Origin: Dermabacter hominis NBRC 106157 | GTDB taxonomy: Bacteria > Actinomycetota > Actinomycetes > Actinomycetales > Dermabacteraceae | DNA length: 64,000 bases | Assembly (NCBI RefSeq): GCF_001570785.1 | Contig: NZ_BCSI01000001.1 | Span: 62,001 to 126,000 of the forward strand | Direction: 5' to 3' | In this document: piece after piece, positions 4,593 through 53,327 of the stretch | Layout of the letters: the number at the start of each line of letters is the position of its first letter | Numbering within the stretch: the stretch's first letter is position 1 | Translations under genes and position numbers: made by a program | Notes under the pieces: model-generated | What the model saw: only the letters and a program-made list of their open reading frames with translations | The model's database searches: none | What the model was told of the DNA's origin: nothing

Positions 4593-4659
4593 GAAAACTA
4601 ACCCCAACGTTTGTGGGGGTATTCGCCGCGATACCGCCACAAACGTTGGGTGTAGTTTC
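4593..4659. repeat. Intergenic palindrome, family R1, copy a
   Basis: The arms read about GAAAACTAACCCCAACG and, at the far end, the reverse complement of GAAACTACACCCAACG. Both continue into TTTGTGG and an inner GGTAT/ATACC pair around an 8-base centre. The same element recurs at 5805-5869, 41313-41378 and 43819-43884. There is no run of T after it, so it is not a standard terminator. Confidence 0.85.
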
Positions 4660-8961: not shown

Positions 8962-9485
8962 CCAGTGTCAACAGTGGCGATAGCAGCCCTCTTACGCACG
9001 TGCGCTCCGACGGTTCGAGCCACATGGTCGATGTGTCGGGCAAAGCCGTCACGACCCGCGAGGCTGTCGCGAGTGCGACCCTGACGAGCCGCGCTGACGT
9101 GATCGACCGGGTTCTCGCAGGCGAGCTGCCCAAGGGGGAGGCGCTCAGCGTCGCCCGAGTTGCGGGCATCATGGCGGCCAAACGCACACACGAGCTGATC
9201 CCGCTGTGCCACCCGCTTCCCATTACCAAGGTCACCGTGGACTTCGCGCGGATCGCTCTCGAGGTGATCGAGGTTCGCGCGCGCGTCAAGACCGAGGGGA
9301 AGACGGGTGTCGAAATGGAGGCGCTCACGGCGGCGAGCGTTGCGGCGCTCACGGTGTACGACATGGTGAAGGCCGTCGATCACCTCGCGGTAATCGGCGA
9401 CGTCAAGGTTCTCGCGAAGTCCGGGGGTAAGAGCGGCGATTGGGACCGTGCCGTCGCGCGCGGCGACAAGGGCGGTGCGCGGTGA
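8958..9485 (+). CDS. moaC: Cyclic pyranopterin monophosphate synthase
   Basis: MoaC converts the product of MoaA to cyclic pyranopterin monophosphate. The 175-residue protein has the family blocks MVDVSGKAVTTREA, KRTHELIPLCHPLPI with the catalytic Lys/His region, EGKTGVEMEALT and YDMVKAVD. Length is normal. It overlaps moeA by 4 bases and mog by 4 bases. The N-terminal segment before the conserved core (residues 1-22) contains a copy of the 9-mer at 9006-9014, read as Ser-Asp-Gly. Confidence 0.95.
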   Translation: MTSVNSGDSSPLTHVRSDGSSHMVDVSGKAVTTREAVASATLTSRADVIDRVLAGELPKGEALSVARVAGIMAAKRTHELIPLCHPLPITKVTVDFARIALEVIEVRARVKTEGKTGVEMEALTAASVAALTVYDMVKAVDHLAVIGDVKVLAKSGGKSGDWDRAVARGDKGGAR

Positions 9486-9976: not shown

Positions 9977-10461
9977 GCGACGGGAAAGACGTGAAAGCAG
10001 TGCAGGATGAGCGCGACCCGCACCTCGGCGGCGTCGAGGACCGCGTGCGTCACGCGAGCGTGAGTGGCGAGGCGGTCGCCGTCGCTGACATGGTCCGTTG
10101 TGTCGAGGATCGGCGCTGCGGCGCGCTCGTGACCTTCGACGGGCTCGTGCGCGACCACGATGAGGGACGCGGGGTTGTGCGTCTCGCCTACGAAGCACAC
10201 CCGAGCGCGAGCGAGGTCATGGCCGATGTGGTGCGCACGATCGCCGAGCGCTACGCGGATGTTCTCGTCGCCGCAAGCCACCGCCACGGTGCTCTTGAGG
10301 TGGGCGATTCGGCGCTCGTTGCTGCAGTCGCAGCTCCCCACCGGGCGCGCGCGTTCGAGGCGTGTGCGGATCTCGTGGATGAGGTGAAGGCGCGCGTTCC
10401 GATTTGGAAGGACCAGTATTTTTCCGACGGTACCCACGAGTGGGTTGCCGCGATCGGCTGA
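9973..10461 (+). CDS. moaE: Molybdopterin synthase catalytic subunit
   Basis: MoaE binds two thiocarboxylated MoaD subunits and makes the dithiolene of molybdopterin. The 162-residue protein carries GALVTFDGLVRDHDEG, LAYEAHPSASEVM, ASHRHGALEVGD and the lysine-containing VPIWKDQYF with the terminal THEWV. The first 30 residues are a family-atypical extension. The start overlaps the mog stop by ATGA. The conserved YFSDGTHEW block contains a copy of the 9-mer (10423-10431), one of the few in strongly conserved protein sequence. Confidence 0.94.
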   Translation: MSDGKDVKAVQDERDPHLGGVEDRVRHASVSGEAVAVADMVRCVEDRRCGALVTFDGLVRDHDEGRGVVRLAYEAHPSASEVMADVVRTIAERYADVLVAASHRHGALEVGDSALVAAVAAPHRARAFEACADLVDEVKARVPIWKDQYFSDGTHEWVAAIG

Positions 10462-10974: not shown

Positions 10975-11001
10975 TGAATTGCATAGGAGTTGTGGGGGTT
11001 T
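10975..11001. repeat. Half copy of palindrome family R2 (copy a)
   Basis: The stretch TGAATTGCATAGGAGTTGTG followed by GGGGTTT matches the left arm of the full R2 elements at 54211 and 56921. The right arm is missing. It lies just upstream of the groES promoter. The rest of the gap 10737-11016 shows nothing else definite, although GGTACC-containing inverted sequence lies near 10755. Confidence 0.7.
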
Positions 11002-17131: not shown

Positions 17132-20100
17132 CTATTCGGCGCGCAGGGCCTCGACCGGGTCCTGTCGCGCCGCCCTCCCCGAGGGGATCACGCCCGCCAG
17201 TACGGTGAGCAGCACCGAGATTCCCACGAGGATCACTCCCGCTAGTGGCGGGAGGCTCGCAATATTCTCGACGTCGAATTTCTGCTCAACGATGATGTTC
17301 GCTGGAATGCACAGCAGAAGCGTGATGCCCACACCAATAAGGCCCGCGAGAAGCCCCTCGATGACCGTTTCCGCATTGAACACGTGGCGGACGTCGGCCT
17401 TTGACGCCCCTACCGCACGCAGGATGCCAATTTCCTTACGCCGCTCAAGCACGGAAATGTAGGTGATGATCGCGATCATGATCGACGAGACCACGAGCGA
17501 GATCGACACGAAGGCGATGAGCATCCACGTGATCACGTTGATAATGCTCGTCACCGAGCTCATGAGCATCCCCACCATGTCGGTGTAGACGATCTCCTTC
17601 TTCTTCTCGCCCCGCGCCTTGGCCTGCGCGTTGTAGGAGTCGAGAATGGCCTTGACCTTGTCCTTGTCCTTGAAACTCGCCGGGTAAATATCGACTTGAT
17701 CGGGACTCGTGCGGTCTGCCCAGCCGAGCTTTTCGAGATTGTCCTCGTAGCTTGCCGCGCGCGTCGACACCATCGTCGACATGAACGCAGCGAGCTCTTC
17801 CTTGTCCATGTTCATTTCGAACGCATCGGCGAATTTCTCCGGATCGACACTCATGGCATTCGCGAAATTCTCGCCCATCGTGGACATCGCGTCATTGATC
17901 TGGCGTTCAATCTCGCCCTGGAGTGCGCTCATGTATTCCTGCATCATGGAGCCGATCGCGTTCGTCAAATACCCGCCGATGGCCTGTTGAATTTGGCTTG
18001 CGAGGGCGCCGCCTAGCTGGGTGGAGAGCTGCTCGGCGATGGCGCTCGAGAGATCGTTGCTGACCGCGGAGGAAACGTCCTTGAGGGCCGGATCGTCGCC
18101 GAGGGCCTCGAAAAGTTGCTGTTCAAGTAGCGCGCGATCGACCACCTTGTCGGAGTTCGAAATCTCGTCTAGTTTCCCTTTGACCTCGTCGGTCTGCATG
18201 TACTCAAGCACGACCTCGGCCGTGTCCCGATCGGGAATCTGGTCGCCGTCGGAATCCGCATGCGCCGCGTAGTACTCCTGAAAGCCCTGGATGAGCGCGC
18301 CCGCCTCGCCGCTGAGGTACGCGCCGGCACCGGGCCGGATCACGTCGCCCTCAAGCGCCTTCGCGAGCGCGCCCTGGAGGTCGATATCGGCGAGCTGGGG
18401 GTAGCGCGCGGTGAGGCCGGCAAGGTCGAGGTCCTGGGGTTTCACGGTTGGGGGTCCGACGGTTGCCGCGCCCGGGTCGAGGCTCGAAAGATCAAGGTCG
18501 CTCATATCGAGTGCGCCCGGATCGAAGTTCGGTGCAGGCATCGAGCTGAGATCGAGACCGCTGAGGTCCATCTGGAGTTTCGACTCGTCGATCTGGAATG
18601 CGCCGCGGATCTTCTCCTGGTCGACCGTAAACAGGGAGCTCATGTCAAAGTCGTCGCCCTGATCGTCGTTTTTGAGTTCGTCGAATGTCTTTCCAGTGAA
18701 AACGTCGACATCGGGATGCGCCCGCTGCTCGTGGACGATCTCCGACTGGGCAGCTTCGGTGATGACCTGGTCCGTGAGGGCGGGGAGGTAGGAGATGCCC
18801 TGCTGGAGCGCGCCCATGTCCTCGCCTTCGTTGGGGCGCACGATGCCGACGATCGTGAGGCGCTCGCCTTTTTCGATCTTCTCGCGCATGAAGTCGGCAT
18901 CGCCGCTGCGGTCGATCCACGTGCCGGTGTCGTCGTTGTGGGTGTAGGTCTCGAAGGCGTTGACGCGCGAGAACTCGGTGCCGATGATCTGGTCGTAGGT
19001 GTACTCGCCGGGTTTTGTGGAGTTCTTGTCTCCCGAGGTGCGGTCGGAATCTCCCGATGCTCGGCCAGCCTGCGTGTTCTCCATCATTTCGTCGAGTTTC
19101 GCGTGGTCCTTGAGGCCGAGTGTGTACTCGTATAGATCGGGCATTCGGCCATTTTCGTCGAGAACGAGCACGAGTTCGTGCGCGTTTGTTGGCCAGCGGC
19201 CGTCGAGGACCCGGTATTTCGAGGTGTAGAGCGCGGTGTTTTCGGGAAGCTGACGGAAGGCGTCCATCGAGAACATTGCGCTCGCGGGGCTGAGCGAGAA
19301 GCCTCCCGAGTATTGAGAAAACGCCTGTTCAGGGTGGACTTGCACGGGTTTGTCGGTGCCGAGCGCGTAGATCTGGGGTTCGGCTGCATACGAGTATTCG
19401 ATCGCCTTGACGTAGGAGTTGATTCCTCCTCCGTTGGCGTCGAAATACTTCTTGAGGGAGGCGAGATCGTTGGTGCTCGTCGAGTTCATGGAGCGCGTGT
19501 ACATCTCAACGGCGCGCACCGTGTTCGCTTTTTCTTCGCCTTTGGGCTTGGCGTTCGCGAGTCCCGATTCCATCGAGACCCCCGTTTTTTGGATACTGAG
19601 CGGGTAGTTCGCGAGAGCGTTTTCCTCGGTTTTGGCGATGTAGCTGTTGACGCCGTTCGCGAGCGCGAGAATCGCGGCGATACCGATGATGCCGATCGAG
19701 CCCGCGAACGAGGTCATGATCGTGCGGCCTTTTTTCGTCATGAGGTTGTTGAAGCTGAGCATGAGTGCCGTGAGCGGCCCCATGCGGGTGTTGCGCGTGG
19801 GTTTCGCTTCGCGCGTCTCCTCGAGGGCCGGGTCGAAGGGATCGGAATCACCGACGACGTGGCCGTCGGCAAACTCGACGACGCGGGTTGCGTATTCGTG
19901 GGCGAGCTCGGGGTTGTGAGTGACCATGATGACGAGGCGATCGCTCGCGACCTCGCGAAGAAGGTCCATGACCTGCACGGACGTGGCGGAGTCGAGGGCA
20001 CCCGTGGGCTCGTCGGCGAGAAGAATCTCGGGGTCGTTGATGAGGGCGCGTGCAATAGCGACTCGCTGCATTTGCCCGCCGGAAAGCTGGCTCGGTTTCT

Positions 20101-25882: not shown

Positions 25883-26734
25883 ATGCTTCGCGTCGCTCTC
25901 CGCCCCAAGTTCCTGGGCCTACTCGCCCTCATGGCAACAGCGACCCTCGTGTGCGGTCTCCTCGCGAACTGGCAGTTCGAGCGAGCAACGCGAGCCCTCG
26001 ACGCCCGCGATGAAACGCAATCCGCCGCGCCCGTCCCGATCGAGGAGCTCATGGACGCGCACGCACCCGTCACAAACGCGGTCCAGGGGCGTCTCGCGTC
26101 ATTCACGGGGGAGTTCGTGCCCTCGGAGCAAGTGCTCGTGCCCGGCCGCGAGATCGACGGCCACGACGCCGCCGTCGTCGTCACAAACGCACGCATCACC
26201 AAAGGGCCGCTTCGCGGCACATCCATCCCCGTCGCGCGCGGTTACACGACCGCCCCCTCGAGCGAATGGGGTACCCTTCCCGAGCCGCCCACCGGCTCGC
26301 ATGAAATAGTCGTGCGCCTCGAGGCCTCCGAGGAGGCGAGCGGCACCGTGCGCCACGAGGGCGATGGGGGCGTGGCGACCGTCGGAACGCTTTCCTCCAC
26401 CCTGCTCGTGAACGTGTGGGAGGGGCCCATGCTCGCCGGGTACGGGGCCCTCACGAACGAGGCGCGTCAGTACATGGCCGGGCCGGGGGAGTCCGACGGT
26501 GCGAGCGCAACCGCTGCGGACGCGTGGCGCGACCTCGGGCCGCTTCCCGCCGCACAGTCGAGCTTCACTAGTGGCCTCAACCTCCAAAACTTCGGATACA
26601 TGCTCCAGTGGATCCTCTTCGGCGTGTTTTTCCTCTACATCTGGTGGCGAAGCGTGCGCTCCACCTACCTTGATGAGCAGGCTGAGCGTAGGCTCGAACT
26701 CGAATCGCGGCTCGCCGGCGAAACCTCGGACTAG
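25883..26734 (+). CDS. SURF1-family protein
   Basis: SURF1 proteins help to assemble cytochrome c oxidase. The 283-residue protein has the family layout: an N-terminal membrane segment (LGLLALMATATLVCGLLANW) followed by a QFERA-type motif, an extracytoplasmic domain of about 200 residues with LVPGREIDG and a PVARGYT block, and a second membrane segment (FGYMLQWILFGVFFLYIWW). Two copies of the 9-mer (26378 and 26492) lie in the extracytoplasmic domain, one in the Gly/Ser/Ala-rich segment GPGESDGASATAAD. The AAGGA upstream nearly touches the ATG. Confidence 0.85.
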   Translation: MLRVALRPKFLGLLALMATATLVCGLLANWQFERATRALDARDETQSAAPVPIEELMDAHAPVTNAVQGRLASFTGEFVPSEQVLVPGREIDGHDAAVVVTNARITKGPLRGTSIPVARGYTTAPSSEWGTLPEPPTGSHEIVVRLEASEEASGTVRHEGDGGVATVGTLSSTLLVNVWEGPMLAGYGALTNEARQYMAGPGESDGASATAADAWRDLGPLPAAQSSFTSGLNLQNFGYMLQWILFGVFFLYIWWRSVRSTYLDEQAERRLELESRLAGETSD

Positions 26735-31681: not shown

Positions 31682-31941
31682 TTCTATACACCGTCTTTAA
31701 ATCTTTAGTTTATGGATCCAGTATATCTGAACGAGTGACCGTGCGGCCCGTCGATGTGGGGAACATCGTTTCGCAGGCATCCGTCGGACTCCCAAGACCC
31801 GGCCTGCTCACGCCCATTCCAGCCCGTGGTGGGCCCGCTTCCCAGGCTCACCCGAGTGATAAAATCGCGGTACTCACCGGCGGCATAAACCCCGGTGTCA
31901 CACGACTAAAACGCAGTACACGTGAAAAGGAAACGATCGTT
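31682..31941. promoter_or_regulatory. Divergent region between the DHA2 pump and lysS
   Basis: An A+T-rich block at 31682-31730 (CTTTAAATCTTTAGTTTATG) probably holds the pump promoter, and a partly symmetric GGATCC-centred sequence near 31713 could be an operator. The remaining part before lysS is G+C-rich and open in the lysS frame, but it has no ribosome site. A T-box leader was looked for and not seen. Confidence 0.45.
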
Positions 31942-33468
31942 GTGCCTGAACTGAATGGTGGCCAAACAGACGGGGCTCAGATGCCCAGCTCGGATCAGCG
32001 TGCGGTTCGAATGCGCAAGCGTTCGGAAATGCTCGAGGGCAACGCACGCCACCCCTACCCGGTGAGTGTGGAACTTACGACCACGATTCCCGAAGTCGTG
32101 AAGGAATTTGGTGGTCTCGAAGCCGGCGAGATGACCGACCGAACCGTTGGCCTCGCTGGCCGCGTGCTTCACATCCGTGAAACCGGCAAGCTTATCTTCG
32201 TTGCTCTCCAGGCTGGCGACCACACCCGCCTCCAGGCCATGCTGAACTTCAAGGCCATCGGTGAAGAGGCGTTCAACGACTTCCGCTCACTCGTGGACAT
32301 CGGTGACCACCTCTTCGTTCACGGCACCGTTGGCACCTCTCGCCGCGGTGAACTGTCGGTTTTCGCCGACCGTTGGGAGATGGCCTCCAAGGCTGTTCGC
32401 CCCCTGCCGAACCTTCACGGCGATCTCAGCGAAGAGGTGCGCGTGCGCCGCCGCTACGTCGACCTCATTACCAACCCCGAAGCGCAGCGCATCGCGCGTC
32501 TTCGTATGCGCGTCCTGCAGTCCATCCGTCAAACGCTCCACGGACACGACTTCCTCGAAGCCGAAACCCCGATGCTGCAGACTATCCCTTCGGGCGCCTC
32601 GGCTCGCCCCTTCTCGACGCACATGAACGCGTTCGACATGGAGCTGTTCCTTCGCATCGCACCCGAGCTATTCCTCAAGCGCGCTGTCGTGGGTGGCCTT
32701 GACCGCGTCTTCGAAATCAACCGCAACTTCCGTAACGAGGGCGCCGACTCTACCCACTCGCCTGAGTTCACGATGCTCGAGTGCTATCAGGCCTACTCTG
32801 ACTACAACGGCATGGCCGAACTCGCACGCGAAATCATCCAAAACGCTGCAATTGCCGCGACTGGCTCCACGCTCGTCACGCTCGCCGACGGAACCGAATT
32901 CGATCTCGGTGGCGAATGGAAGCGCATCGACCTGTACGAGAGCCTGTCCACGCATGCCGGCGAGGAAATCACGCCCGAAACCTCCGTCGAGCACCTTCGA
33001 GAGCTTGCCCGCAAGTTCGAGGTTGAGGTCGAGGAAGAAAAGCTCGGGCACGGCAAGCTTGTCGAGGAAATTTGGGAGCACCTCATCCCCGACGAAGAGC
33101 TCTACGCGCCAGTGTTCGTCATGAACTACCCGGTTGAGACCAGCCCGCTCACCCGTGACCATCGCGAACGCAAAGGCGTCGTCGAGAAGTGGGATCTCTA
33201 CATCCGTGGTTCGGAAATCGGCACTGCGTACTCCGAGCTCGCCGATCCGGTGATCCAGCGCGAGCGCTTCGTGCAGCAGGCGCAGCTCGCCGCTGGCGGC
33301 GACGAGGACGCAATGCGTTACGACGAAGACTTCTGCGATGCCATGGAGTACGGCTTCCCGCCGTCAGGCGGAATGGGCATGGGGATCGACCGTGTCCTGC
33401 AGACCATCACCGGCCTCGGTATCCGCGACACGATTCTGTTCCCGCTCGTGAAGCCGATTACGGAATAA
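31942..33468 (+). CDS. lysS: Lysyl-tRNA synthetase, class II
   Basis: The enzyme charges tRNA-Lys in the cytoplasm. The 508-residue protein has an OB-fold anticodon domain in the first 150 residues (TVGLAGRVLHIRETGKLIF) and a class II catalytic domain with motif 2 FRNEGADSTHSPEFTMLE and motif 3 GMGMGIDRVLQ. I chose GTG at 31942, since AAAGGAA lies nine bases upstream. A frame extending to 31735 has no conserved sequence. A bidirectional hairpin zone follows. Confidence 0.94.
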   Translation: MPELNGGQTDGAQMPSSDQRAVRMRKRSEMLEGNARHPYPVSVELTTTIPEVVKEFGGLEAGEMTDRTVGLAGRVLHIRETGKLIFVALQAGDHTRLQAMLNFKAIGEEAFNDFRSLVDIGDHLFVHGTVGTSRRGELSVFADRWEMASKAVRPLPNLHGDLSEEVRVRRRYVDLITNPEAQRIARLRMRVLQSIRQTLHGHDFLEAETPMLQTIPSGASARPFSTHMNAFDMELFLRIAPELFLKRAVVGGLDRVFEINRNFRNEGADSTHSPEFTMLECYQAYSDYNGMAELAREIIQNAAIAATGSTLVTLADGTEFDLGGEWKRIDLYESLSTHAGEEITPETSVEHLRELARKFEVEVEEEKLGHGKLVEEIWEHLIPDEELYAPVFVMNYPVETSPLTRDHRERKGVVEKWDLYIRGSEIGTAYSELADPVIQRERFVQQAQLAAGGDEDAMRYDEDFCDAMEYGFPPSGGMGMGIDRVLQTITGLGIRDTILFPLVKPITE

Positions 33469-33490: not shown

Positions 33491-33530
33491 AGGCGGCCGC
33501 TTCGGGATTCGTCCCGGGGCGGTCGCCTTT
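33491..33530 (+). terminator. Terminator after lysS
   Basis: The stem AGGCGGCCGC/GCGGTCGCCT, with one wobble pair, encloses an inner GGGA/TCCC-type loop and is followed by TTTCG. It begins 23 bases after the lysS stop. Confidence 0.75.
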
Positions 33531-33595
33531 CGTGTGTTTGTTGGGCCGGGCTATTGGTGCCTGGGAAATATAGGCTAGGGCCGGCGATGGGGGTT

Positions 33596-33630
33596 AGGGT
33601 CCGACGGTTGCTCAGCAACCGTCGGACCCT
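33596..33630. repeat. Perfect hairpin built from two inverted copies of the 9-mer
   Basis: The 16-bp arms AGGGTCCGACGGTTGC and GCAACCGTCGGACCCT are perfectly complementary around the 3-base loop TCA. Each arm carries one 9-mer. It lies 128 bases after lysS and 313 bases beyond the end of potE. It has no T run, and both genes have other terminators nearer to them. The rest of the gap (33631-33871) shows nothing definite. Confidence 0.9.
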
Positions 33631-33871
33631 CCTGCTTCATGGGCACCCCACGCCGCCCCAAACTTGGCGTTGCCCTACTGGCGAGCCCCGTGGCCGCCTG
33701 TCCTGCTGCTCTTTGTCCCTCCTTTCGCTCTTCCCACTCGAACCCTGTTAGTGGTCCTCGCGACGTGGCGAATCGGAGTGCTGGGGGCATGTGAGTGATC
33801 TCCAGTCGCCACGACATTTGCACCTCGGCGCGGCGAGCGGGCAAAGCAAATCGCAAGTGGCTGTACGCAAA

Positions 33872-33910
33872 GAAGCGCTCCCGCCCCTTGGAGGGGAGCG
33901 GGAGCGCTTC
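33872..33910 (-). terminator. Terminator after potE
   Basis: A perfect 13-bp stem, GAAGCGCTCCCGC/GCGGGAGCGCTTC, with a 13-base loop that can pair further, is followed on the minus strand by TTTGCG. It starts 33 bases after the potE stop. Confidence 0.88.
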
Positions 33911-33943: not shown

Positions 33944-35344
33944 TCAGGCCTGTGCAGCCTCGGCCTCGGAAGCGGCGAGCGCCTCCGGGTCGGTGCCAAT
34001 GGGCTCGAGGTGCATCTCGCCCTGCTTGATGAGCTTCGGAACGATGAGGCCGAAGAAGCCCCAACCGAGGAAGGTCACGAGGCAGCCACCGACGAACGCT
34101 TCCGCACCAGCGGCGTAGAGAGCGTAGAGGCTGTAGAGGAGCGAGATGAAGGCGACGATGACGGTCGTGCGACGCGTCTTCGCGGGAACCTTCTCGGCGA
34201 ACATCATCGCGGCAAGCGCAGCCATCGAGAGGATGTACGGCATCACGTTTGTGACCACTGCGAGGTTCACGAGTACCTCGAACTGCTTCGAGAGCTCGGG
34301 GCTCATGGTCATGAAGGTGATGAGGGTCTGAACAGCGGTAATGATGACCATACCGAGGATCGGAGCACCGTTCTTCGAGAGCTTCGTGAACCACTTCGGG
34401 AACATACGCACGAGAGCCATCGAGCGGGCAACCTCGGCGATGGTGAACTGCCAACCGAGCAGCGAACCGAAGCAGGAGATAACCATGAGGCCAAGAACGA
34501 TGCGGCCGATGAGCGGGTTGAACATCTGCGAGAACACGAGGCCGAACGGGCCGTCGGAGGACGCAAGAGCAGCGTTGTCGACGATACCGGCGATGACGTT
34601 GGTCGACACGATGTAGAGGACAGCGGCGCCGATGGTGCCGAAGAGCACCGCGCGGGGAACGTTCTTCTCGGGGTTCTCAACAGCGTCGGAGTTCGCCGAG
34701 GCGGACTCGAGACCGAGGAACGCCCAGAGGGTCATCGAGATCGACATGCTGATGGCCTCGAACATGTTGTACGAGTGCGGGTTCCATGAGGCTGCCCAGA
34801 GGCTGCCATCGAACCAGAACCAACCGAAGATACACATGAAGAACACCGGGATGATAACGCCCCAGATGGTGACCGAGGAGATCTTACCGGTGATGGAGGC
34901 GCCACCGAAGTTGAGGACGGTTGCGAGCCAGAGGGTTGCGATGGTGAGGAGGCCGACGATGACGGGGCCATTGGCCATCTTCGAGCTGTCGATCTGCATG
35001 AACGAAAGTGCGTAACCAACAGCCGAAATCGCGATCGCGATGTTCGCGATCACGAGCGAAATAAAGTAAGTGAAGTTTGCGGTGAAGTTGCCGGCCTTAC
35101 CGAAGGCGTATTCAGCGTAGCCGCCCATGCCGCCGGGGCGCTTCGAGTAGCGGCCTGCCATAGCGAAGGCGTAAGCAAGAAGGGTAGCGCCGGTCGCGGT
35201 GACGAGCCAGGAAAGGATGGAGACGGTGCCGACTTCGGCGAGCTTCGTGGGAAGCATGATGATGCCGGAGCCCATCATGTTCACCATCGTGAGGATGGTG
35301 AGCTGGACAACGCCCATCTTCTTGCGTTGAGGAGTCTGTGACAT
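33944..35344 (-). CDS. potE: Ornithine-putrescine antiporter PotE
   Basis: PotE exchanges external ornithine for internal putrescine and, with SpeF, raises pH and builds a proton gradient. The 466-residue protein has 12 predicted membrane segments and follows enterobacterial PotE closely: KMGVVQLTILTMVNMMGSG, MLPTKLAEVG, GGMGGYAEYAFGK, AIAISAVGYAL, LWAFLGLESA, VSTNVIAGIV, SLLGWQFTIAEV and VLVNLAVVTN. This is far closer than members of this antiporter family in different phyla usually are. CadB-like lysine-cadaverine exchange is less likely given the strong PotE match. It follows speF after 76 bases. Confidence 0.93.
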   Translation of the reverse strand: MSQTPQRKKMGVVQLTILTMVNMMGSGIIMLPTKLAEVGTVSILSWLVTATGATLLAYAFAMAGRYSKRPGGMGGYAEYAFGKAGNFTANFTYFISLVIANIAIAISAVGYALSFMQIDSSKMANGPVIVGLLTIATLWLATVLNFGGASITGKISSVTIWGVIIPVFFMCIFGWFWFDGSLWAASWNPHSYNMFEAISMSISMTLWAFLGLESASANSDAVENPEKNVPRAVLFGTIGAAVLYIVSTNVIAGIVDNAALASSDGPFGLVFSQMFNPLIGRIVLGLMVISCFGSLLGWQFTIAEVARSMALVRMFPKWFTKLSKNGAPILGMVIITAVQTLITFMTMSPELSKQFEVLVNLAVVTNVMPYILSMAALAAMMFAEKVPAKTRRTTVIVAFISLLYSLYALYAAGAEAFVGGCLVTFLGWGFFGLIVPKLIKQGEMHLEPIGTDPEALAASEAEAAQA

Positions 35345-40378: not shown

Positions 40379-41169
40379 ATGCGCGTACGTCCCCGCTCAC
40401 GGCCAAGGATCTGCAGATCGCGGGCCTCGTGCCACTTTCGACCGTGGACTGGCCGGGTCAACTCGCCGCGACCCTGTTCGTACAGGGGTGCCCGTGGCGG
40501 TGCCACTACTGCCACAATCGGGCGATTCTCGATCCGCGCACGCCGGGCGCGGTGTCATGGTTTGAGGTTCGCGATCTGCTTGAAAGGCGTCGGGGTCTCC
40601 TTGATGCCGTCGTGTTTTCCGGCGGTGAGGCAACAATGCAGCATGCGCTCGTTCCGGCGCTTGAGGAAGTGCGTGACCTCGGCTTTCATGCGGGCCTACA
40701 CACGGGCGGGGCGTTTCCTGCGCGTATCGACACGATAGTGCAGGCTGCGCAGGGTCCCCTCGTTGACTGGGTGGGCTTCGACTTGAAGGCGCCGCCCGAG
40801 GTGTTCGAAGAAACCGTCGGACTTCCCGCCACCCGGGGCGCCGCACGCGTGTGGGAGAACTCGCGGCGGTCGTTCCTCGCGCTTGCACGCGCCGGGGTAG
40901 AGATTGAGCTGCGCACGACCCTCACCCCGGTGCTCGCCCCGTACGCCCCGCGCATCGTCGAGGTCGCCTCCGATCTCTGGCGTGAGGCTGGGGTGGAGAG
41001 GGGAGCGCGAACGCTGATTTTTCAGCAGGCGAGGTCCGACGGTACGTCCGATACCTTTGCGCGCACGCTTCCCGAGCGCCCCCGCTGGAATCGAATGTTC
41101 GAGGCGGTGCTCGACAGCGCACGGACGACGGGCGACGTGGTGGGTGTTCGGGTTGAGGCGCGTGCCTAG
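40375..41169 (+). CDS. nrdG: Anaerobic ribonucleotide reductase activating protein (radical SAM)
   Basis: NrdG generates the glycyl radical in NrdD using S-adenosylmethionine and a 4Fe-4S cluster. The 264-residue protein has the cluster motif CPWRCHYCHN, FSGGEATMQ for SAM binding, and GLHTGGAFP. It begins LQIAGLVPLSTVDWPG, typical of the longer NrdG-like proteins; E. coli NrdG is only about 150 residues. ATG at 40375 overlaps the nrdD stop (ATGA). Two 9-mers lie in the second half (40813, 41035). Confidence 0.92.
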   Translation: MNARTSPLTAKDLQIAGLVPLSTVDWPGQLAATLFVQGCPWRCHYCHNRAILDPRTPGAVSWFEVRDLLERRRGLLDAVVFSGGEATMQHALVPALEEVRDLGFHAGLHTGGAFPARIDTIVQAAQGPLVDWVGFDLKAPPEVFEETVGLPATRGAARVWENSRRSFLALARAGVEIELRTTLTPVLAPYAPRIVEVASDLWREAGVERGARTLIFQQARSDGTSDTFARTLPERPRWNRMFEAVLDSARTTGDVVGVRVEARA

Positions 41170-41559: not shown

Positions 41560-43710
41560 ATGCGCACGTTTTCCCTCCGCTCTCTGCTTGCCACCGCAAG
41601 CCTGGCCGCCGCAAGCGCGCTGGCCCTCTCCCCGATAGCGCCCGCAGCCGCGGTCGCGAACGACGACGGTTCGAAGACCGTCACCGTCGCAACGTTCACC
41701 GACCTCCACGGGCACCTCGAACGAGTCCCGAACCTCGCCTACCAGATCGAGCAGATCAAGGCGGAGAACCCAGGCGACACGATCGTCGCGTCCAACGGCG
41801 ACTCGGTGGGCGGCAGCGCCTACATTTCGTCGGTCCAGAAGGACGAGCCCACCATCGAAGCGCTCAACGCGATGGGCCTTCAGGTGTCCTCGGCCGGCAA
41901 TCACGAGTTCGACAAGGGGTACAAAGAAGACATGGCGGCAGGTGCCCGCTTGAATAAGGAATCGAATTTCCCGTACCTCGCAGCGAACCTCACCGGGGCC
42001 GATCCCGAAGCGATCCCGCCGTACACGATCATCGACACGGAATCAGGCGTGAAGGTCGGTTTCATCGGTACCGCGCCCATTTCCTCGCCGAAGGACATTT
42101 CGGTGGACTCCTTCACGAACCAGGGGCTAGCGGTCACTGACCCCGTTGCCGCTGTCGACAAGTACGCGGCGCAGCTCAAGGATGGCGACGAGTCCAACGG
42201 CGAAGCCGACGTCGTCATTGCCCTCGTGCACGATGATGCCGACATTGCGGCGAAGGTCGGCAAGAACGTAGATGCTGCGGTGGGTGGCCACAGTCACCGC
42301 AAGGCTGAGCTCGCCACGGCGAGCGGGGCTCCCGTGATTCAACCGGCAAACTTCGGCCAGCTTCTCGGCCGCTTCGACATTACCGTTGCCGCCGATGGCA
42401 AGGTGAGCGTGAAGGCGTCGATGAGCGAGGTCGCCGACATCGAGCAAACTCCCGATGCCCCTACGGAGCCTAAGGCGATGGACATCTACTCCAAAGCCGC
42501 TGCCTACGCCGAAAAGACAAACAAGACCCTCGCCGAAATCGAGGGCAAGGCACTCACCGCCCGCTCCTCGGGTGCCGAGTCCACGGCCGTCAACATGATT
42601 GCCGACGGTTTCCTTGCGTGGGGTAAGGGCCAGAAGCAGGGCGTCGACCTCGGCTACCAGAACGCCGGCGGTACCCGCGCTGACCTCGATCCGAACCAGG
42701 ACGGCAAGATCACCGTTGTCGAGTCGGGAACGGTGCAGCCATTCGGCAACACGCTCGGCACCGTTGAGATCACCGGTGCGCAGCTGATCGGTCTCGTCGA
42801 ATCGCAGTTTGGTGTTGACGATGCCGGCAAGCCCCGCGTGAAGAATGCTGGCTTCAGCCGGAACCTTTCCTACACCTACGATCCCACGGCCCCCGAGGGA
42901 TCGAAGGTGATGGACGTGCGTCTCGACGGTAAGCCGGTCGATCCGAAGGCGACGTACACGGTCGCCACGACGTCGTACCTCCTTTCAAGCGTGTTCGGTG
43001 ACGGTAAGAACCGCATCGACTCGACCGAGGTTGATCTCGATGCGTTCAATGCATGGCTAAAGAAGGTTTCCCCCTACAAGGTTGATCAGGGCCAGCGCGG
43101 TATCGGCTTCACGTCCTCCGCCAAATCGTTCAAGGCCGGCGACAAAGTCGAGGTGAGCCTGAGTTCACTGTCCATGACGGCCGACGAAGACAAGCCGACC
43201 GAAGCGGTGATGTACGACGACAAGGGCAATGAGATTGGCCGCGGCCCCGTAGACAACACGCTTGACGGCAATGAGACAGGCAAGGCCACGTTCACCATTA
43301 CGATCCCGAACTACACGGAATCCGGTACCTACGTCTACACCATCAAGGCTGGCGCGACGACCGGTTACGTGGCCCTTGTGTTCGAGCGGGACGGTGTAGC
43401 GCCGGGTACCGGCAACGGCTCCGAGGACACCCCGGCGGATGATTCGGAAGGCGCGGGAGGCTCGGCCGGTGAGGAAGAACCGGGCGTGGGCGATTCCGAC
43501 GGTACCCCCGCTGATGGCGAGGGCTCGGATGTTCCAGCGTCGGCGGGCGATGGAAGCGAGGGGGTTTCCGGTTCGACCGGTGCGCGCGGTACGGGGGCGT
43601 CGGCGCTTCCACGTACGGGTGCTGAGTCGCTCGGTGTTGCGGGTGTTGCCTTCGTGGCTATCGCTGCGGGTGGTGTGCTCGTATCGCGGCGACGTGCAAG
43701 CCGCGCGTAG
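41560..43710 (+). CDS. Cell-wall-anchored 5'-nucleotidase/UshA-like metallophosphatase
   Basis: This surface enzyme probably removes phosphate from nucleotides or related esters outside the cell. The 716-residue protein has a signal peptide (MRTFSLRSLLATASLAAASA, cut near APAAAVAND), a calcineurin-like metallophosphatase domain (TFTDLHGHLERV, SNGDSVGGS, SAGNHEFD, and GGHSHRK), and a 5'-nucleotidase C-terminal domain (residues about 330-510). An Asp/Gly/Ser-rich linker and a sortase signal LPRTG at 683-687 with membrane segment and RRRASRA follow. Substrate is not certain. GAGGA lies six bases before the ATG. R1 repeats lie on both sides. Confidence 0.92.
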   Translation: MRTFSLRSLLATASLAAASALALSPIAPAAAVANDDGSKTVTVATFTDLHGHLERVPNLAYQIEQIKAENPGDTIVASNGDSVGGSAYISSVQKDEPTIEALNAMGLQVSSAGNHEFDKGYKEDMAAGARLNKESNFPYLAANLTGADPEAIPPYTIIDTESGVKVGFIGTAPISSPKDISVDSFTNQGLAVTDPVAAVDKYAAQLKDGDESNGEADVVIALVHDDADIAAKVGKNVDAAVGGHSHRKAELATASGAPVIQPANFGQLLGRFDITVAADGKVSVKASMSEVADIEQTPDAPTEPKAMDIYSKAAAYAEKTNKTLAEIEGKALTARSSGAESTAVNMIADGFLAWGKGQKQGVDLGYQNAGGTRADLDPNQDGKITVVESGTVQPFGNTLGTVEITGAQLIGLVESQFGVDDAGKPRVKNAGFSRNLSYTYDPTAPEGSKVMDVRLDGKPVDPKATYTVATTSYLLSSVFGDGKNRIDSTEVDLDAFNAWLKKVSPYKVDQGQRGIGFTSSAKSFKAGDKVEVSLSSLSMTADEDKPTEAVMYDDKGNEIGRGPVDNTLDGNETGKATFTITIPNYTESGTYVYTIKAGATTGYVALVFERDGVAPGTGNGSEDTPADDSEGAGGSAGEEEPGVGDSDGTPADGEGSDVPASAGDGSEGVSGSTGARGTGASALPRTGAESLGVAGVAFVAIAAGGVLVSRRRASRA

Positions 43711-46498: not shown

Positions 46499-48085
46499 AT
46501 GGCCGACATCTCTCAGCCCGACACGAACGACCTCGTTGCCGCCTACGCGTTTGCGGAGCCGCGGATCCATCTCGGCGCGGTCGTCGATGGCGGCGAGCCG
46601 AACCCCGAAGCGCCGCTCTATATGCCGCTCGGAATGCTCAATAGGCACGGTTTGATTGCCGGCGCTACCGGCACCGGCAAAACAAAAACTTTGCAGCTCA
46701 TCGCGGAGCAAATCGCGGCCGCCGGTACCTCCGTTTTCGTCGCGGATATGAAGGGTGACCTTTCCGGCATTGCCGTTCCCGGGCAGGCGTCGGAAAAACT
46801 CACCGAACGTGCGAAGGCTCGCGCTCAAGAATGGGTATCTCGCGCTGGCACCACCGAATTCTTTTCGCTGGGTGGACACGGCAAGGGCGTGCCGATTCGC
46901 ACGACGGTTACCGAATTCGGACCGGTTCTCCTCTCCAAGGTGCTGGGTCTCAACGAGACCCAAGAATCCTCCCTTTCGCTTATCTTCCACTACGCTGACC
47001 AGAGCGGCCTTGCCCTCCTCGACCTCAAGGATCTGCGCGCCCTCATCCAATACCTCACGACCGATGGCAAGGATGAGCTCAAGAGCATCGGCGGTATTTC
47101 TACCGCGACCGCCGGTGTTATTTTGCGCAACCTCACCCAGTTCGAAAACTCCGGCGCAGACGTGTTTTTTGGAGAGCCGGCGTTCAACGTCGAGCATTTC
47201 CTCCGGAAAGATTCCGACGGTCGCGGGATCATCTCGTGTCTCGAACTTCCCGGCGTTGCCGAGCGGCCGGAAGTGTTTTCAACCTTCATGATGTGGATGC
47301 TCGCTGAGCTCTACCAGGTGCTGCCGGAAGTGGGCGATCTTCCCCAGCCGAAACTCGTGTTCTTCCTCGACGAGGCGCATCTGCTTTTCAAGGGCGCATC
47401 CAGTGCCTTTATCGACCAAGTCATCCAAACCGTGAGGCTTATTCGCTCCAAGGGCGTCGGCGTATTCTTCATTACCCAATCGCCCAAGGACATTCCCGCC
47501 GACGTTCTCGCGCAGCTCGGCAACCGCGTCCAGCACGCCTTGCGCGCTTTCACGCCCGATGACGCAAAGGCCATCAAGAAAGCAGTCGCCACCTACCCCA
47601 CAACCGAGTACGACCTCGAAAAGCTCCTGACCTCCCTCGGCACGGGCGAAGCGGTCGTCACCGTCATGAACGAGAAGGGCGCGCCGAGCCCCGTGGCCTA
47701 CGCCGCGATGCGCGCCCCCGAATCCTCGATGGAGCCCGCGCCGGAAGCCGAGATCGATCGGATTATCGCGTCCAGCCAGATCGCGGACCAGTACAGCACT
47801 GTTGTGGATCGCGAAAGCGCGTACGAGATCCTCAAGGCGCGTGCGGAGGGTAGCCAGGTCGGTCAGGGGGAGTCCGACGGTTCCTCGACGACCGTCGGAA
47901 CCGAAAAGCCCGATGCGGGCGCAGCCCCCGCCGCGAAGGCGAAGCCCGCGAAGGAAGAGCCCGGATTCGTGGAGAAGATCGCGGGCAACAGCGCGGTCAA
48001 GAGTTTCTTCCGTTCGGCGGGGACGGTGCTCGGGCGTGAGATTACGCGTTCGCTGTTCGGGACGACTCGCAAGCGTCGCCGATAG
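46499..48085 (+). CDS. HerA-like ATPase (DUF853 family)
   Basis: The 528-residue protein is a hexameric-type P-loop ATPase. It has Walker A GATGTGKTKT at 55-64, VADMKGDLSG, and Walker B LVFFLDEAHLLF, followed by VFFITQSPKDIP. The role of DUF853 proteins is not settled; they resemble the HerA/FtsK translocases. Residues about 440-490 are a Gly/Ser/Pro/Ala/Lys linker (GQGESDGSSTTVGTEK) that holds two inverted 9-mers, then a short conserved tail. AAGGAG precedes the ATG. Confidence 0.88.
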   Translation: MADISQPDTNDLVAAYAFAEPRIHLGAVVDGGEPNPEAPLYMPLGMLNRHGLIAGATGTGKTKTLQLIAEQIAAAGTSVFVADMKGDLSGIAVPGQASEKLTERAKARAQEWVSRAGTTEFFSLGGHGKGVPIRTTVTEFGPVLLSKVLGLNETQESSLSLIFHYADQSGLALLDLKDLRALIQYLTTDGKDELKSIGGISTATAGVILRNLTQFENSGADVFFGEPAFNVEHFLRKDSDGRGIISCLELPGVAERPEVFSTFMMWMLAELYQVLPEVGDLPQPKLVFFLDEAHLLFKGASSAFIDQVIQTVRLIRSKGVGVFFITQSPKDIPADVLAQLGNRVQHALRAFTPDDAKAIKKAVATYPTTEYDLEKLLTSLGTGEAVVTVMNEKGAPSPVAYAAMRAPESSMEPAPEAEIDRIIASSQIADQYSTVVDRESAYEILKARAEGSQVGQGESDGSSTTVGTEKPDAGAAPAAKAKPAKEEPGFVEKIAGNSAVKSFFRSAGTVLGREITRSLFGTTRKRRR

Positions 48086-48285: not shown

Positions 48286-48337
48286 GTGTGTGGGCAACCG
48301 TCGGAACCCGAGAGGTTACGGGGCGGGCGTGAGCCCG

Positions 48338-49575: not shown

Positions 49576-51377
49576 CAGCTCTCTCCTTCCTCGTTGGCCT
49601 TTGCTGGAGGATCCTCGTGCGCATCGGCGCGGTGAGTATTACGCCGCACGGGTTCCGACGGTTGCGCCGCCTCCATCGACTTCAGGAACGTGTGGCGTGC
49701 GGGGCGCACGTGAGGGCGTCGCCGCATTCCCGGCACGTAGACGGGGGTGGGCGGGGACATCGTGATGCCCGCGCGCCCGAAGTGTTCGTGGGGCTGTTCG
49801 TTGGCGCCACCGAGCGCGAGTTCCATTTGCTGACCGGACAGCTCGGGAATCGGCGGGAGCGGAATCGTTGGATCCTGCTCGAAGTGGGCGGCGCCGTGGG
49901 CGAACGAGGTGTCGGCGCTTGGAACGGACGGCACGATGATCGGCGACGGCGAGGAGTCCTGTGCCGGTTGTTCGGCTGGCGTGCCATCGGCGTCGCCCGC
50001 CGGAGCACTCGTCGCCTCGGCATTCGTCGTGGCATCCGTACGGGACCGGGTGGCGTCGGATCCGGAAATGAGCCCGCCCGGCATGGGCCCCACGTAGTGC
50101 GGCCCATACTCGGCGACCTGCACCCACGTTTCGGCAACGCGAACCATCGCTTCCGTGGCGCGCTCCCAATCGGGCTCCTGCTGGCGATGCGGGCCCGTTG
50201 CGAGGGAAAGGACCACGCCGGCGGCGCGCAGCGCGAGTTCTTGCGGATCAACGCGGTTCGCGAAAACGGGATACCACGTGCGAATCGCCTCCGCGACCCG
50301 TTCGTGAATGTCGAGAGTCAGGCGGCCCTGATTCGCGTAGTCGCCAAGCACGGAGAGGTGGGCGCACAGGCACGCGAGGTCGTCGGCGCGGCGGCCTGGA
50401 CCAACCCCGTCAATGTCGAGGACGCCAACGACGCGGGAATTGTCCACGAACACTTGCGCCTCGTAAAAGTCGCCGTGGACGACTTCGGTGGGCTCGAGGC
50501 CAATGCGACGCTCGACGTCGGCGAGGCCCAGCTCGATGCGGTACACGAGGACATCGAGGCGGTCTTTGAGGGAGGGGAGGCTCGAGGCGACAACGCCAGC
50601 GTAAAACTCGGCGGAATCGGTCCACGGCGGGCGCACGGGCTGATCCATGAGGGAGACGGGGAGGCGGTCGAGCATCGCGACGAGATCCTCGGCGTGGCAC
50701 GCGCGCTCGCCCTCTTCGATCACCGCCTTCGCGAGAACCGTGCCGGGCAACTCGGCGAGCACGACGAGGCCGTCCGTCGAGCCGAGAACGGCGGGGACCG
50801 GAACGCCTGCCTCGAGCAGGCTGTGGTGGAGGTTGACGACGCTCGAGGTCGTGTGCGGTTGGAACACCTTGAGGAACACGTTGCGGTCGGCGAGGGTGGC
50901 CTTGAGCACGGCGCGGCGGCCGGGGCGGTAGCTCACAACCTCAACCGGCACGGGGGTGCCCTCCGCAAAGCCCGTGGCAACACCGAGACGGCCGAGGGTT
51001 TCGTGGAGGACATCCGGGTAGCACACCTGCGGGAGCATCGGCAGCCACGGGTCGTGGGGGTAGCGCCATACGCGCACGTTCATGTCGCCGTCGGTCATCA
51101 CGAGGGACTGCTCGGGGGCGAGCACGTTCTTTTCCTGCTCACCGATGTGGGCGCTCACGCCGAAGAGCTCATCGCGAGGTTCAGCCTCGGCGCCGTCAAG
51201 CTCCACCCAGCGCACCTTCGTGCGGAACATTGCTTTCGTGGAGCGTGAAGGGCGGTGGTCGACGTGGTCGAGCGTCCATTCGACGAGCTCGCCGCCCGCG
51301 TTGGTGACGGCCGCCTCGAGCACACCTCCGGCCTGGGGCCCCGTGAGAAGCTCGGAACCGTCAAGGGTCTCTGTCAT
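49575..51377 (-). CDS. APH/choline-kinase-fold phosphotransferase, C-terminal low-complexity tail
   Basis: The 600-residue protein holds an aminoglycoside phosphotransferase-like kinase fold in residues about 130-400: RRAVLKATLADRNVFLKVF, the Brenner motif VVHGDFYEAQVFV and LDIDGVGPGRRADDLA. Before it is a domain with VRVWRYPHDPWLP. The last 200 residues are rich in Ala, Pro, Gln and Thr and probably unfolded. The substrate is unknown; similar actinobacterial proteins are not shown to inactivate drugs. ATG at 51377 has a weak ribosome site. The tail carries a 9-mer at 49654. Confidence 0.82.
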   Translation of the reverse strand: MTETLDGSELLTGPQAGGVLEAAVTNAGGELVEWTLDHVDHRPSRSTKAMFRTKVRWVELDGAEAEPRDELFGVSAHIGEQEKNVLAPEQSLVMTDGDMNVRVWRYPHDPWLPMLPQVCYPDVLHETLGRLGVATGFAEGTPVPVEVVSYRPGRRAVLKATLADRNVFLKVFQPHTTSSVVNLHHSLLEAGVPVPAVLGSTDGLVVLAELPGTVLAKAVIEEGERACHAEDLVAMLDRLPVSLMDQPVRPPWTDSAEFYAGVVASSLPSLKDRLDVLVYRIELGLADVERRIGLEPTEVVHGDFYEAQVFVDNSRVVGVLDIDGVGPGRRADDLACLCAHLSVLGDYANQGRLTLDIHERVAEAIRTWYPVFANRVDPQELALRAAGVVLSLATGPHRQQEPDWERATEAMVRVAETWVQVAEYGPHYVGPMPGGLISGSDATRSRTDATTNAEATSAPAGDADGTPAEQPAQDSSPSPIIVPSVPSADTSFAHGAAHFEQDPTIPLPPIPELSGQQMELALGGANEQPHEHFGRAGITMSPPTPVYVPGMRRRPHVRPARHTFLKSMEAAQPSEPVRRNTHRADAHEDPPAKANEEGES

Positions 51378-51995: not shown

Positions 51996-53327
51996 ATGCC
52001 CGCGATCGTGATCGTTGGAGCCCAGTGGGGCGATGAAGGAAAGGGAAAGGCAACCGATCTTCTCGGCGATCGCGTCGACTACGTTGTCAAGCCCAACGGC
52101 GGCAACAATGCGGGGCACACGGTCGTCGTCCACGGCGAAAAGTTCGAGCTTAAACTCCTCCCCGCGGGGATTCTGTCGCCGAACGCGACGCCCGTGATCG
52201 GCAACGGCGTGGTCGTGAACCTCGATGCGCTCTTCGAGGAAATCGACACTCTTGAATCGCGCGGCGTCGACACCTCGCACTTGCGCATTTCCGCGAACGC
52301 GCACATCGTTGCCCCCTTCCACCAAACGATGGACCGCGTCACCGAGCGCTTCCTCGGCAAGCGCGCAATCGGTACAACCGGCCGCGGCATCGGGCCTGCC
52401 TACATGGACAAGGTGGGGCGCCTCGGCATCCGCGTGCAGGACCTGTTCGACGAGTCGATCCTGCGCCAAAAGGTTGAAGGCTCGCTTCGCCAGAAGAATG
52501 GCGTGCTCGTGAAGCTCTACAACCGTCGGGCCGTAGAGGTTGAGGAGATCGTGGCAGGCCTTCTCCAGTACGCGGAGCGGATCCGCCCCATGGTCGTGGA
52601 CACGACCGAGATGCTGAACTCGGCGCTCGACCGGGGGGAACTCGTGCTCATGGAGGGCGGCCAAGCGACCTACCTCGACGTGGACCACGGCACGTACCCG
52701 TTCGTGACGAGCTCGAACCCCACCGCGGGTGGCGCGTGCACGGGTTCCGGTATCGGTCCGACGCGCATCGATCGCGCGATCGGCATCGTCAAGGCGTACA
52801 CGACGCGCGTGGGCGCTGGCCCGTTCCCCACGGAACTCTTCGATAAATGGGGCGAATACCTTCAGCAGAAGGGCCACGAAGTGGGCGTCAATACGGGGCG
52901 CCCGCGCCGTTGCGGCTGGTACGACGCCCTCATGATTCGCCACGCCGTGCGCATCAATGGCTTTACCGATCTGGTGCTCACGAAGCTCGACATTCTCACG
53001 GGTCTCGACGAGGTGCCGATCTGCACCGCCTACGAGATCGATGGCGAAATCCACCGAGACATGCCCATGACGCAAACTGAGTTCCACCACGCGAAGCCCG
53101 TATACGAGACGATGCCCGGGTGGAGCGAGGACATCTCGAAGGCTCGCACGTTCGAGCAGCTGCCAATCGAGGCACAAAACTACGTGCGCCGGCTCGAGGA
53201 CCTTGCCGGCTGCCGCATTTCGGCGATCGGCGTTGGTCCGGACCGCGATGACACTATCGCGGTGCACTCGCTCATTCCCAGCGAGGAACGCCTCGCGGGT
53301 GAAGGGTCCGACGGTGCCGGCGCGTAA
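51996..53327 (+). CDS. purA: Adenylosuccinate synthase
   Basis: The enzyme joins IMP and aspartate using GTP, the first step to AMP. The 443-residue protein has [12 protein letters not shown] (P-loop), [42 protein letters not shown] and DRDDTI near the end. After the normal end of the family it has a short extra tail, [13 protein letters not shown]. This tail carries a 9-mer (53307), and the last 14 bases overlap the next gene. Confidence 0.97.

Follow-up and report, generated by a model that had tools for sequence, protein, structure and literature searches.

Sequence-specific DNA uptake through a short word dispersed in the genome has, to our knowledge, been established only in the Neisseriaceae and the Pasteurellaceae. 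ComN has been proposed as the receptor for the uptake sequence of the Pasteurellaceae. In Neisseria, the DNA uptake sequence (DUS) occurs about 1900 times per 2.2-2.3 Mb, and its receptor in the Neisseriaceae is ComP (PMC3630211). The DUS is very abundant both within and between genes, exists in dialects with an invariant core, and forms inverted pairs that have been linked to terminators; for the overlapping DUS dyads of Simonsiella and Kingella, the authors hinted at dimer-based recognition (PMC3630211). The USS of the Pasteurellaceae is AAGTGCGGT, with a 9-base core; it is present in approximately 1300 copies in H. influenzae, where opposed copies often form terminator stems (PMC5217627). 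Natural transformation of Micrococcus luteus requires Flp/Tad pili and involves ComEA and ComEC (PMC6370729).

The locus that we compared with these systems lies in a stretch of DNA of 64,000 nucleotides, hereafter the window, which spans C1:62001-126000 in a genome of 2.16 Mb that comprises 28 contigs. The genome was taken to belong to the Dermabacteraceae, the family in which the B. faecium genome paper places Brachybacterium. As in the Neisseriaceae, we found an abundant short repeat in and outside genes, dialects with a shared core, inverted pairs and overlapping dyads. Unlike the DUS, the repeat has the core CCGACG rather than CTG, resides in an actinobacterial host with Tad-type genes, is less dense in the genus of the window, and has a putative function. 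The weak downstream preferences flanking its consensus, GGKTCCGACGSYTGC, such as a T near +34, recall the extra signals outside the core of the USS, whereas the word itself is unrelated to the USS, its dyads are rigidly spaced, and predicted genes contain nearly half of the pairs whose context is known. The kinds of genes used for transformation by M. luteus are present in all 47 genomes of the family, whereas the parts of the M. luteus report that we cite describe no uptake sequence (PMC6370729).

The hairpin between lysS and the potE-like gene

The LysS ORF (31735-33468, plus strand, Pfam tRNA-synt_2, start uncertain) and a potE-like permease ORF (33944-35344, minus strand) are convergent, and a hairpin at 33596-33630 occupies the gap between them. 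The initial annotation, from which the name potE is kept, had described in this convergent setting a perfect 16-bp hairpin formed by two inverted 9-mers and followed by no T run, and our results agreed with that description. The structure is a perfect 16-pair stem with a 3-nt loop, AGGGTCCGACGGTTGC-TCA-GCAACCGTCGGACCCT. Its left arm, as read from the sequence (33596-33611, plus strand, AGGGTCCGACGGTTGC), contains the extended word GGGTCCGACGGTTGC; the TCA loop (33612-33614, plus strand) forms the centre of the dyad; and the right arm (33615-33630, minus strand) is the reverse complement of the left. The hairpin is built from two facing copies of the 9-mer TCCGACGGT, located at 33600-33608 on the plus strand and at 33618-33626 on the minus strand, with starts 18 bases apart and a spacer of 9. 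The RNA fold of 33590-33636 reached -34.9 kcal/mol (z -6.5), and none of 200 shuffles was as good. An intrinsic terminator consists of a GC-rich hairpin and then a T run; the hairpin is present here and the T run is not, since the bases that directly follow are CCTGCTTC.

It had also been stated that each of the two genes has its own nearer terminator. Nearer hairpins exist on both flanks: one of 17 pairs with a T-rich tail after lysS (33491-33528, plus strand, by folding and terminator scan) and one of 11 pairs after the potE-like ORF (33877-33905, minus strand, by folding). The terminator scan flagged the inner part of the former, with its T-rich tail, and did not flag the latter; the former is probably lysS's own terminator. 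The possibility that the hairpin at 33596-33630 is a known Rfam RNA was considered and dropped, because the whole 64-kb window gave no Rfam match at the gathering score.

Abundance, specificity and dialects of the word

Ranked by excess score, TCCGACGGT leads the 9-mers of the window, with 19 copies against 1.31 expected by dinucleotide shuffle and a maximum of 5 in 100 shuffles. Besides the hairpin, these include a second exact inverted pair of the same spacing at 47873-47899, inside the predicted ORF 46499-48085. Single copies are located on the plus strand at 6561-6569, 9006-9014, 10423-10431, 18455-18463, 26492-26500, 41035-41043, 43495-43503, 47213-47221, 49654-49662, 53307-53315 and 62516-62524, and on the minus strand at 8085-8093, 26378-26386, 40813-40821 and 48297-48305. 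The whole genome carries 285 copies (139 on the plus and 146 on the minus strand) versus 17 for the reversed word, which is an imperfect control, given the weak excesses over it in other families. Most word statistics were taken from genome samples rather than full genomes. A 464-kb sample of the genome of the window (the own sample) holds 65 copies, compared with 5.4 expected under a chain model; the expectation is model-dependent, being 1.3 per window by dinucleotide shuffle and 5.4 or 10.6 per 464 kb under two chain models. In the genus of the window, the exact 9-mer occurs once per 7.6 kb, and the form with two variable positions approximately once per 2.5 kb. The word thus recurs throughout the genome far above chance, which is one of the properties expected of an uptake sequence. 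An uptake sequence would also be expected to outnumber all other repeats of its length, and here the picture varied: by raw count, the word ranks 26th among the 9-mers of the own sample, 16th in G041, first in G040 and second in G002, where it stands behind an overlapping word; by z-score in the own sample, it is outranked by ATTGCATAG, an unrelated intergenic element.

Changes inside CCGACG occurred at counts near or below background, at most 1.6 times, and the last two places of the 9-mer were tolerant, with both G->C (65 vs 7.4) and T->C (82 vs 16.1) enriched. When two samples were summed, single-mismatch forms numbered 364 versus 122 exact copies. Leave-one-out logos of the G040 and G002 dialects revealed little flank signal. 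The intergenic density of the word was about twice its genic density, although counts in coding and intergenic DNA are approximate, since the gene calls came from a crude codon-score caller. Within predicted coding sequences, the own sample contained 42 copies compared with 4.1 +- 1.8 in 30 synonymous shuffles (maximum 9), an excess of approximately 10-fold; the corresponding values were 209 vs 21.9 +- 4.7 in G002 and 28 vs 4.6 +- 2.0 in G040. The genic copies of the own sample lay in both orientations and in more than one frame, with 33 of 42 in frame 0. Thus, the word has the distribution expected of an uptake sequence, on both strands, within and between genes, and independent of codons.

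To assess conservation, the own sample was aligned to that of G039, which appears to be a Helcobacillus massiliensis assembly, over 164 kb at 86.8% identity; most of the unaligned DNA was one 44-kb stretch at the end, perhaps a synteny break. TCCGACG was unchanged in 58 of 79 aligned copies, compared with a mean fraction of 0.44 over the 1097 7-mers that had 40 or more aligned copies, and ranked fourth. Exact 9-mers were identical at 13 of 24 aligned positions, and 50 of 66 aligned sites with the two variable positions still fitted this form in G039, the commonest changes being mostly the tolerated ones.

H. massiliensis (an assembly labelled 'Dermabacter indicis') is the nearest named relative, with a LysS that is 98% identical, followed by Brachybacterium squillarum at 65%. 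Two sister species contain 294 and 257 copies of TCCGACGGT. G040, which was assigned to the same genus, shows no excess (23 copies vs 22 for the control), and its dispersed words are led by GGGGCCGACGG and related words, apart from a C run that scores higher. The dialect of G002 is CGGCCGACGGGG and that of G043 is GGCCGACGGGTYC; the dialects GGKTCCGACGSYTGC, GGGGCCGACGGG, CGGCCGACGGGG and GGCCGACGGGTYC all retain CCGACG, so that species dialects with a conserved core, another property of uptake sequences, were found. The form GGCCGACGGG is present in 1536 copies in G002, 1044 in G043 and 381 in G040, and in 101-844 copies in the other 37 genomes of a genus (g2) that we infer to be Brachybacterium. 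It reached at least three times its reversed control in 40 of the 47 family genomes, and 8.3 times in 27. G000, G039 and G041 use the other dialect, and G042, G044, G045 and G046 remained below threefold for GGCCGACGGG. In the other families of the order, about 18 of 361 genomes, counted by eye, reached threefold, the highest values belonging to G354 (115 vs 14) and to a genome of 0.8 Mb (12 vs 1). G354, from family f10, shows the clearest excess over the reversed word in a normal-sized genome outside the family. These results lent support to the analogy with uptake-sequence pairs drawn in the initial annotation, as the 9-mer proved to be genome-wide, strand-symmetric and divided into species dialects.

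Neither the known Neisseria DUS nor the Pasteurellaceae USS word was among the dispersed words found, which were CCGACG-based. The reverse-strand form ACCGTCGGAA (25 in the own sample) matches the DUS GCCGTCTGAA at 8 of 10 places, a likeness that is probably due to chance; at 33617-33626 of the window, ACCGTCGGA is followed by C. In addition, a 25-kb region of G002 (C1:70-95 kb) contains no GGCCGACGG, has a lower GC content, encodes a sugar epimerase and a Mutator-family transposase, and looks acquired. A desert in the own genome, at sample offset 245-275 kb, was also considered as foreign DNA; it is not clearly so, since ordinary genes including nrdEF are found there.

Geometry and context of the inverted pairs

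The pair at 33596-33630 is not the sole inverted pair: the genome contains 9 exact inverted pairs of TCCGACGGT and, when two variable positions are allowed, 26 pairs. Under the latter definition, G039 has 28, G041 has 22 and G040 has none. In a search range of 0-30, the spacer was 7-9 in all 75 pairs listed of the 76 found, the remaining one being from G041, with spacers of 7, 8 and 9 in 1, 7 and 67 pairs, respectively. A spacer of 9 places the 7-base cores 20 bp apart, centre to centre, or approximately two helical turns. Only 2 of the 26 own pairs, 33600-33626 being one of these, match at all of the outer 11-12 positions when Watson-Crick pairs are counted and G-U pairs are not. In G002 the geometry is different, with overlapping pairs that face outward at a start distance of 5, which make up 15 of the 20 divergent pairs within 60 bases. 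Dyads accounted for 14 of 177 sites in the own sample (approximately 8%), roughly 92% of the sites being single. Because degenerate second half-sites beside the singles showed only marginal enrichment once strong pairs were removed, the single copies look like real singles.

It had been suggested that such pairs, like those of Haemophilus and Neisseria, tend to follow genes, and the outcome was mixed. Context was available for 15 pairs drawn from 18 exact pairs in three genomes, some of which are orthologous and thus not all independent. Eight of these were intergenic and had a stop codon no more than 132 bases away, but the other 7 lay inside predicted genes. Of the 7 intergenic pairs in two samples, 6 were found at most 200 bases after a stop codon, versus 33 of 76 intergenic singles and 32% of intergenic bases; for the intergenic share of pairs versus singles, Fisher's test gave p 0.05. 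The measurement of distances to stop codons therefore went in the direction proposed, but on small numbers, and dyads seem to favour gene ends.

In H. massiliensis, the lysS-potE gap retains an inverted pair, TCCGACGGTTGC TGG GCAAGCGTCGGA, with one arm in an alternative spelling, even though the blastn alignments end at the edges of this gap on either side. Since the pair was kept although alignment was lost, and since most stems are mismatched, what is conserved is the word pair in a fixed geometry and not a perfect RNA stem. The fixed spacing of the half-sites, combined with the mostly imperfect stems, points to recognition at the level of DNA rather than of an RNA hairpin.

Competence-type genes, candidate function and competing explanations

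Competence-type genes were present, and it is their presence alone that was scored. Matches to ComEC, HHH_3 (as in ComEA) and the T2SSE ATPase were obtained in 47 of 47 family genomes, and also in 10, 11 and 14 of 14 controls, respectively. Because they are also matched in most controls, these three discriminate little, and as predicted genes they would permit competence without proving it. TadE was matched in 47 of 47 family genomes, 46 of them above the cut-off, and among the 14 controls only in Caulobacter, while DprA-family matches were found in 45 of 47 family genomes. In the own genome, a ComEA-type HHH_3 protein adjoins ComEC, ATPase and TadE matches occur together at C2:181-184 kb, and an ATPase occurs with a TadE match below the cut-off at C6:82-86 kb. 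G042 and G044 possess the same kinds of competence genes and have no such word. A by-eye alignment of ComEA across dialects (7 genomes) revealed no obvious specificity switch.

Some observations concern DprA. In G042, which lacks the word, the DprA match is split within one frame (C1:2799396-2800178 and C1:568778-569149 are the positions given for G042), and the second DprA copy has an internal stop; no DprA-family match was found in G045 (96% complete) or G033 (84% complete). It is possible that damage to or absence of predicted DprA is linked to loss of transformation, but G044, which is also without the word, has a full DprA match and is a counter-case.

Because the pattern matches that of the Neisseria DUS, we favour, as on balance probable, the reading that the word belongs to a candidate DNA-uptake-sequence system in Actinobacteria that would work like the Neisseria DUS. 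In such a system, DNA bearing the word would be preferred by a cell-surface receptor that belongs to the competence machinery. The receptor could be ComEA or a minor pilin, from a Tad/Flp filament or another of type IV; ComEA or a Tad-type minor pilin is proposed as the reader because M. luteus transformation needs Flp/Tad pili. Recombination of imported fragments would spread and preserve the word on both strands, in and between genes. Related genera have dialects of their own that share the CCGACG core. The two half-sites of a dyad, which lie on the same helical face at a distance of about 20 bp, would be suited to a dimeric receptor. The hairpin at 33596-33630 is one of the genome's two most symmetrical rigid dyads of the putative 'self' word GGKTCCGACGSYTGC, and some dyads after genes may also serve as transcript ends, as a side effect. 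Several observations weigh against this reading: three of the competence-type gene families are matched in most controls, G042 and G044 have the genes and lack the word, the raw-count ranks are modest in the own sample and in G041, an unrelated element has a higher z-score in the own sample, the density falls short of that of the Neisseria DUS, the ComEA alignment shows no obvious switch, and the spread in G002 is uneven.

A broader proposal, to which we give about an even chance, is that the Dermabacteraceae independently evolved a dialect-bearing uptake-sequence system, which would have no precedent in Actinobacteria or in single-membrane bacteria, with a Tad/Flp-type filament or ComEA as a dimeric reader that would also read rigid 25-27-bp dyads such as 33600-33626. 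No such word was reported in the titles and openings of abstracts of the literature on uptake sequences in Brachybacterium, Actinomycetales, Actinobacteria and Gram-positives/Micrococcus, a literature in which few subscription journals were represented. By title, only food papers connected Brachybacterium with natural competence, and in a word search of the B. faecium genome paper the words competence, transformation and uptake were absent. If true, the proposal would add a third independent case, an indication that 'self' tags arise again and again in evolution; the reader could then be sought in a system that has no outer membrane, and it could be predicted between which species of Brachybacterium and Helcobacillus genes are exchanged.

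The main rival to the uptake sequence is a site for a dimeric chromosomal protein acting in the nucleoid, segregation or replication control, in which the singles would be half-sites and each dyad, its half-sites separated by about 20 bp, would be bound by a dimer. We consider this explanation unlikely. It would account for the spacer of 7-9 on the same helical face in 75 of 75 pairs listed and for the dyads inside predicted genes, and it agrees with the fairly even spread of the word in the Helcobacillus group, where the variance/mean over 10-kb bins was 0.86 and 1.31. However, a chromosomal protein would have to be reconciled with hundreds to 1500 copies, with dialects that differ between related species, with the low share of sites in dyads (14 of 177, approximately 8%), and with G002, in which the pairs are overlapping palindromes and the spread is uneven (variance/mean 3.39). 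Thus, the rigid dyad fits a chromosomal protein, while the change of dialect and the excess of singles fit it less well.

HIP1 of cyanobacteria is a highly iterated word, and a word of this kind, kept through methylation or a repair bias, would likewise show a strand-symmetric, genic and intergenic, lineage-specific excess. We regard this origin as improbable here, since the word is not a full palindrome, the rigid dyads would be left unexplained, and variants inside the core are not enriched.

Slightly less credible still is the idea that a standard stem serves as an intrinsic terminator or as a hairpin at mRNA 3' ends. The perfect stem at 33596-33630 and the stop codon within 132 bases of all 8 intergenic exact pairs with context speak for it, and terminators consisting of hairpins without a U run have been proposed in actinobacteria. 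Nevertheless, the hairpin has no T run, and lysS and the potE-like gene have nearer hairpins of their own. In addition, the stems of 24 of the 26 dyads contain Watson-Crick mismatches (G-U uncounted), predicted genes contain 7 of the 15 exact pairs, and roughly 92% of copies, being single, would be left unexplained. Because nearly half of the pairs with known context are in genes and most pairs do not match perfectly, termination is not the main reading.

A Chi-like recombination hotspot or an FtsK-orienting (KOPS-like) sequence would also be short, GC-rich and very frequent, but we find it very doubtful, because facing pairs are over-represented and the expected strand polarity was not observed. 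Where the samples of two species have an almost wholly positive GC skew, strand counts were 38/27 and 23/34, summing to 61/61, and KOPS-like polarity was dropped on account of these equal counts. Finally, the idea that the excess arises from a common peptide or codon usage, which the predominance of frame 0 among genic copies (33 of 42 in the own sample) might suggest, can practically be dismissed, given 4.1 copies in synonymous shuffles versus 42 observed, copies in both orientations and a higher density between genes.

REP and other palindromic intergenic repeats are inverted repeats between genes. The dyads resemble them in this respect, whereas the word considered here mostly occurs singly, with unrelated flanks, and in many cases inside predicted genes. 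The genome also contains other repeats. A second element of 27 bases, AAACCCCCACAACCCCTATGCAATTCA, arranged around CTATGCAAT, is found in the window at 10978, 48222, 48353, 54214, 54265, 56924 and 56975. The 464-kb own sample contains 16 copies of CTATGCAAT, and 400 kb from G041 contain 11. None of these falls within a predicted gene; many are located 20-80 bases past a predicted stop codon, and four facing pairs are exactly 51 bases apart. A third repeat, the palindromic intergenic CCCAACGTTTG, has facing copies 37 bases apart at 4603/4640 and 5813/5850 of the window and at own-sample offset 165271/165308, three places in all, and is absent from the G041 sample.
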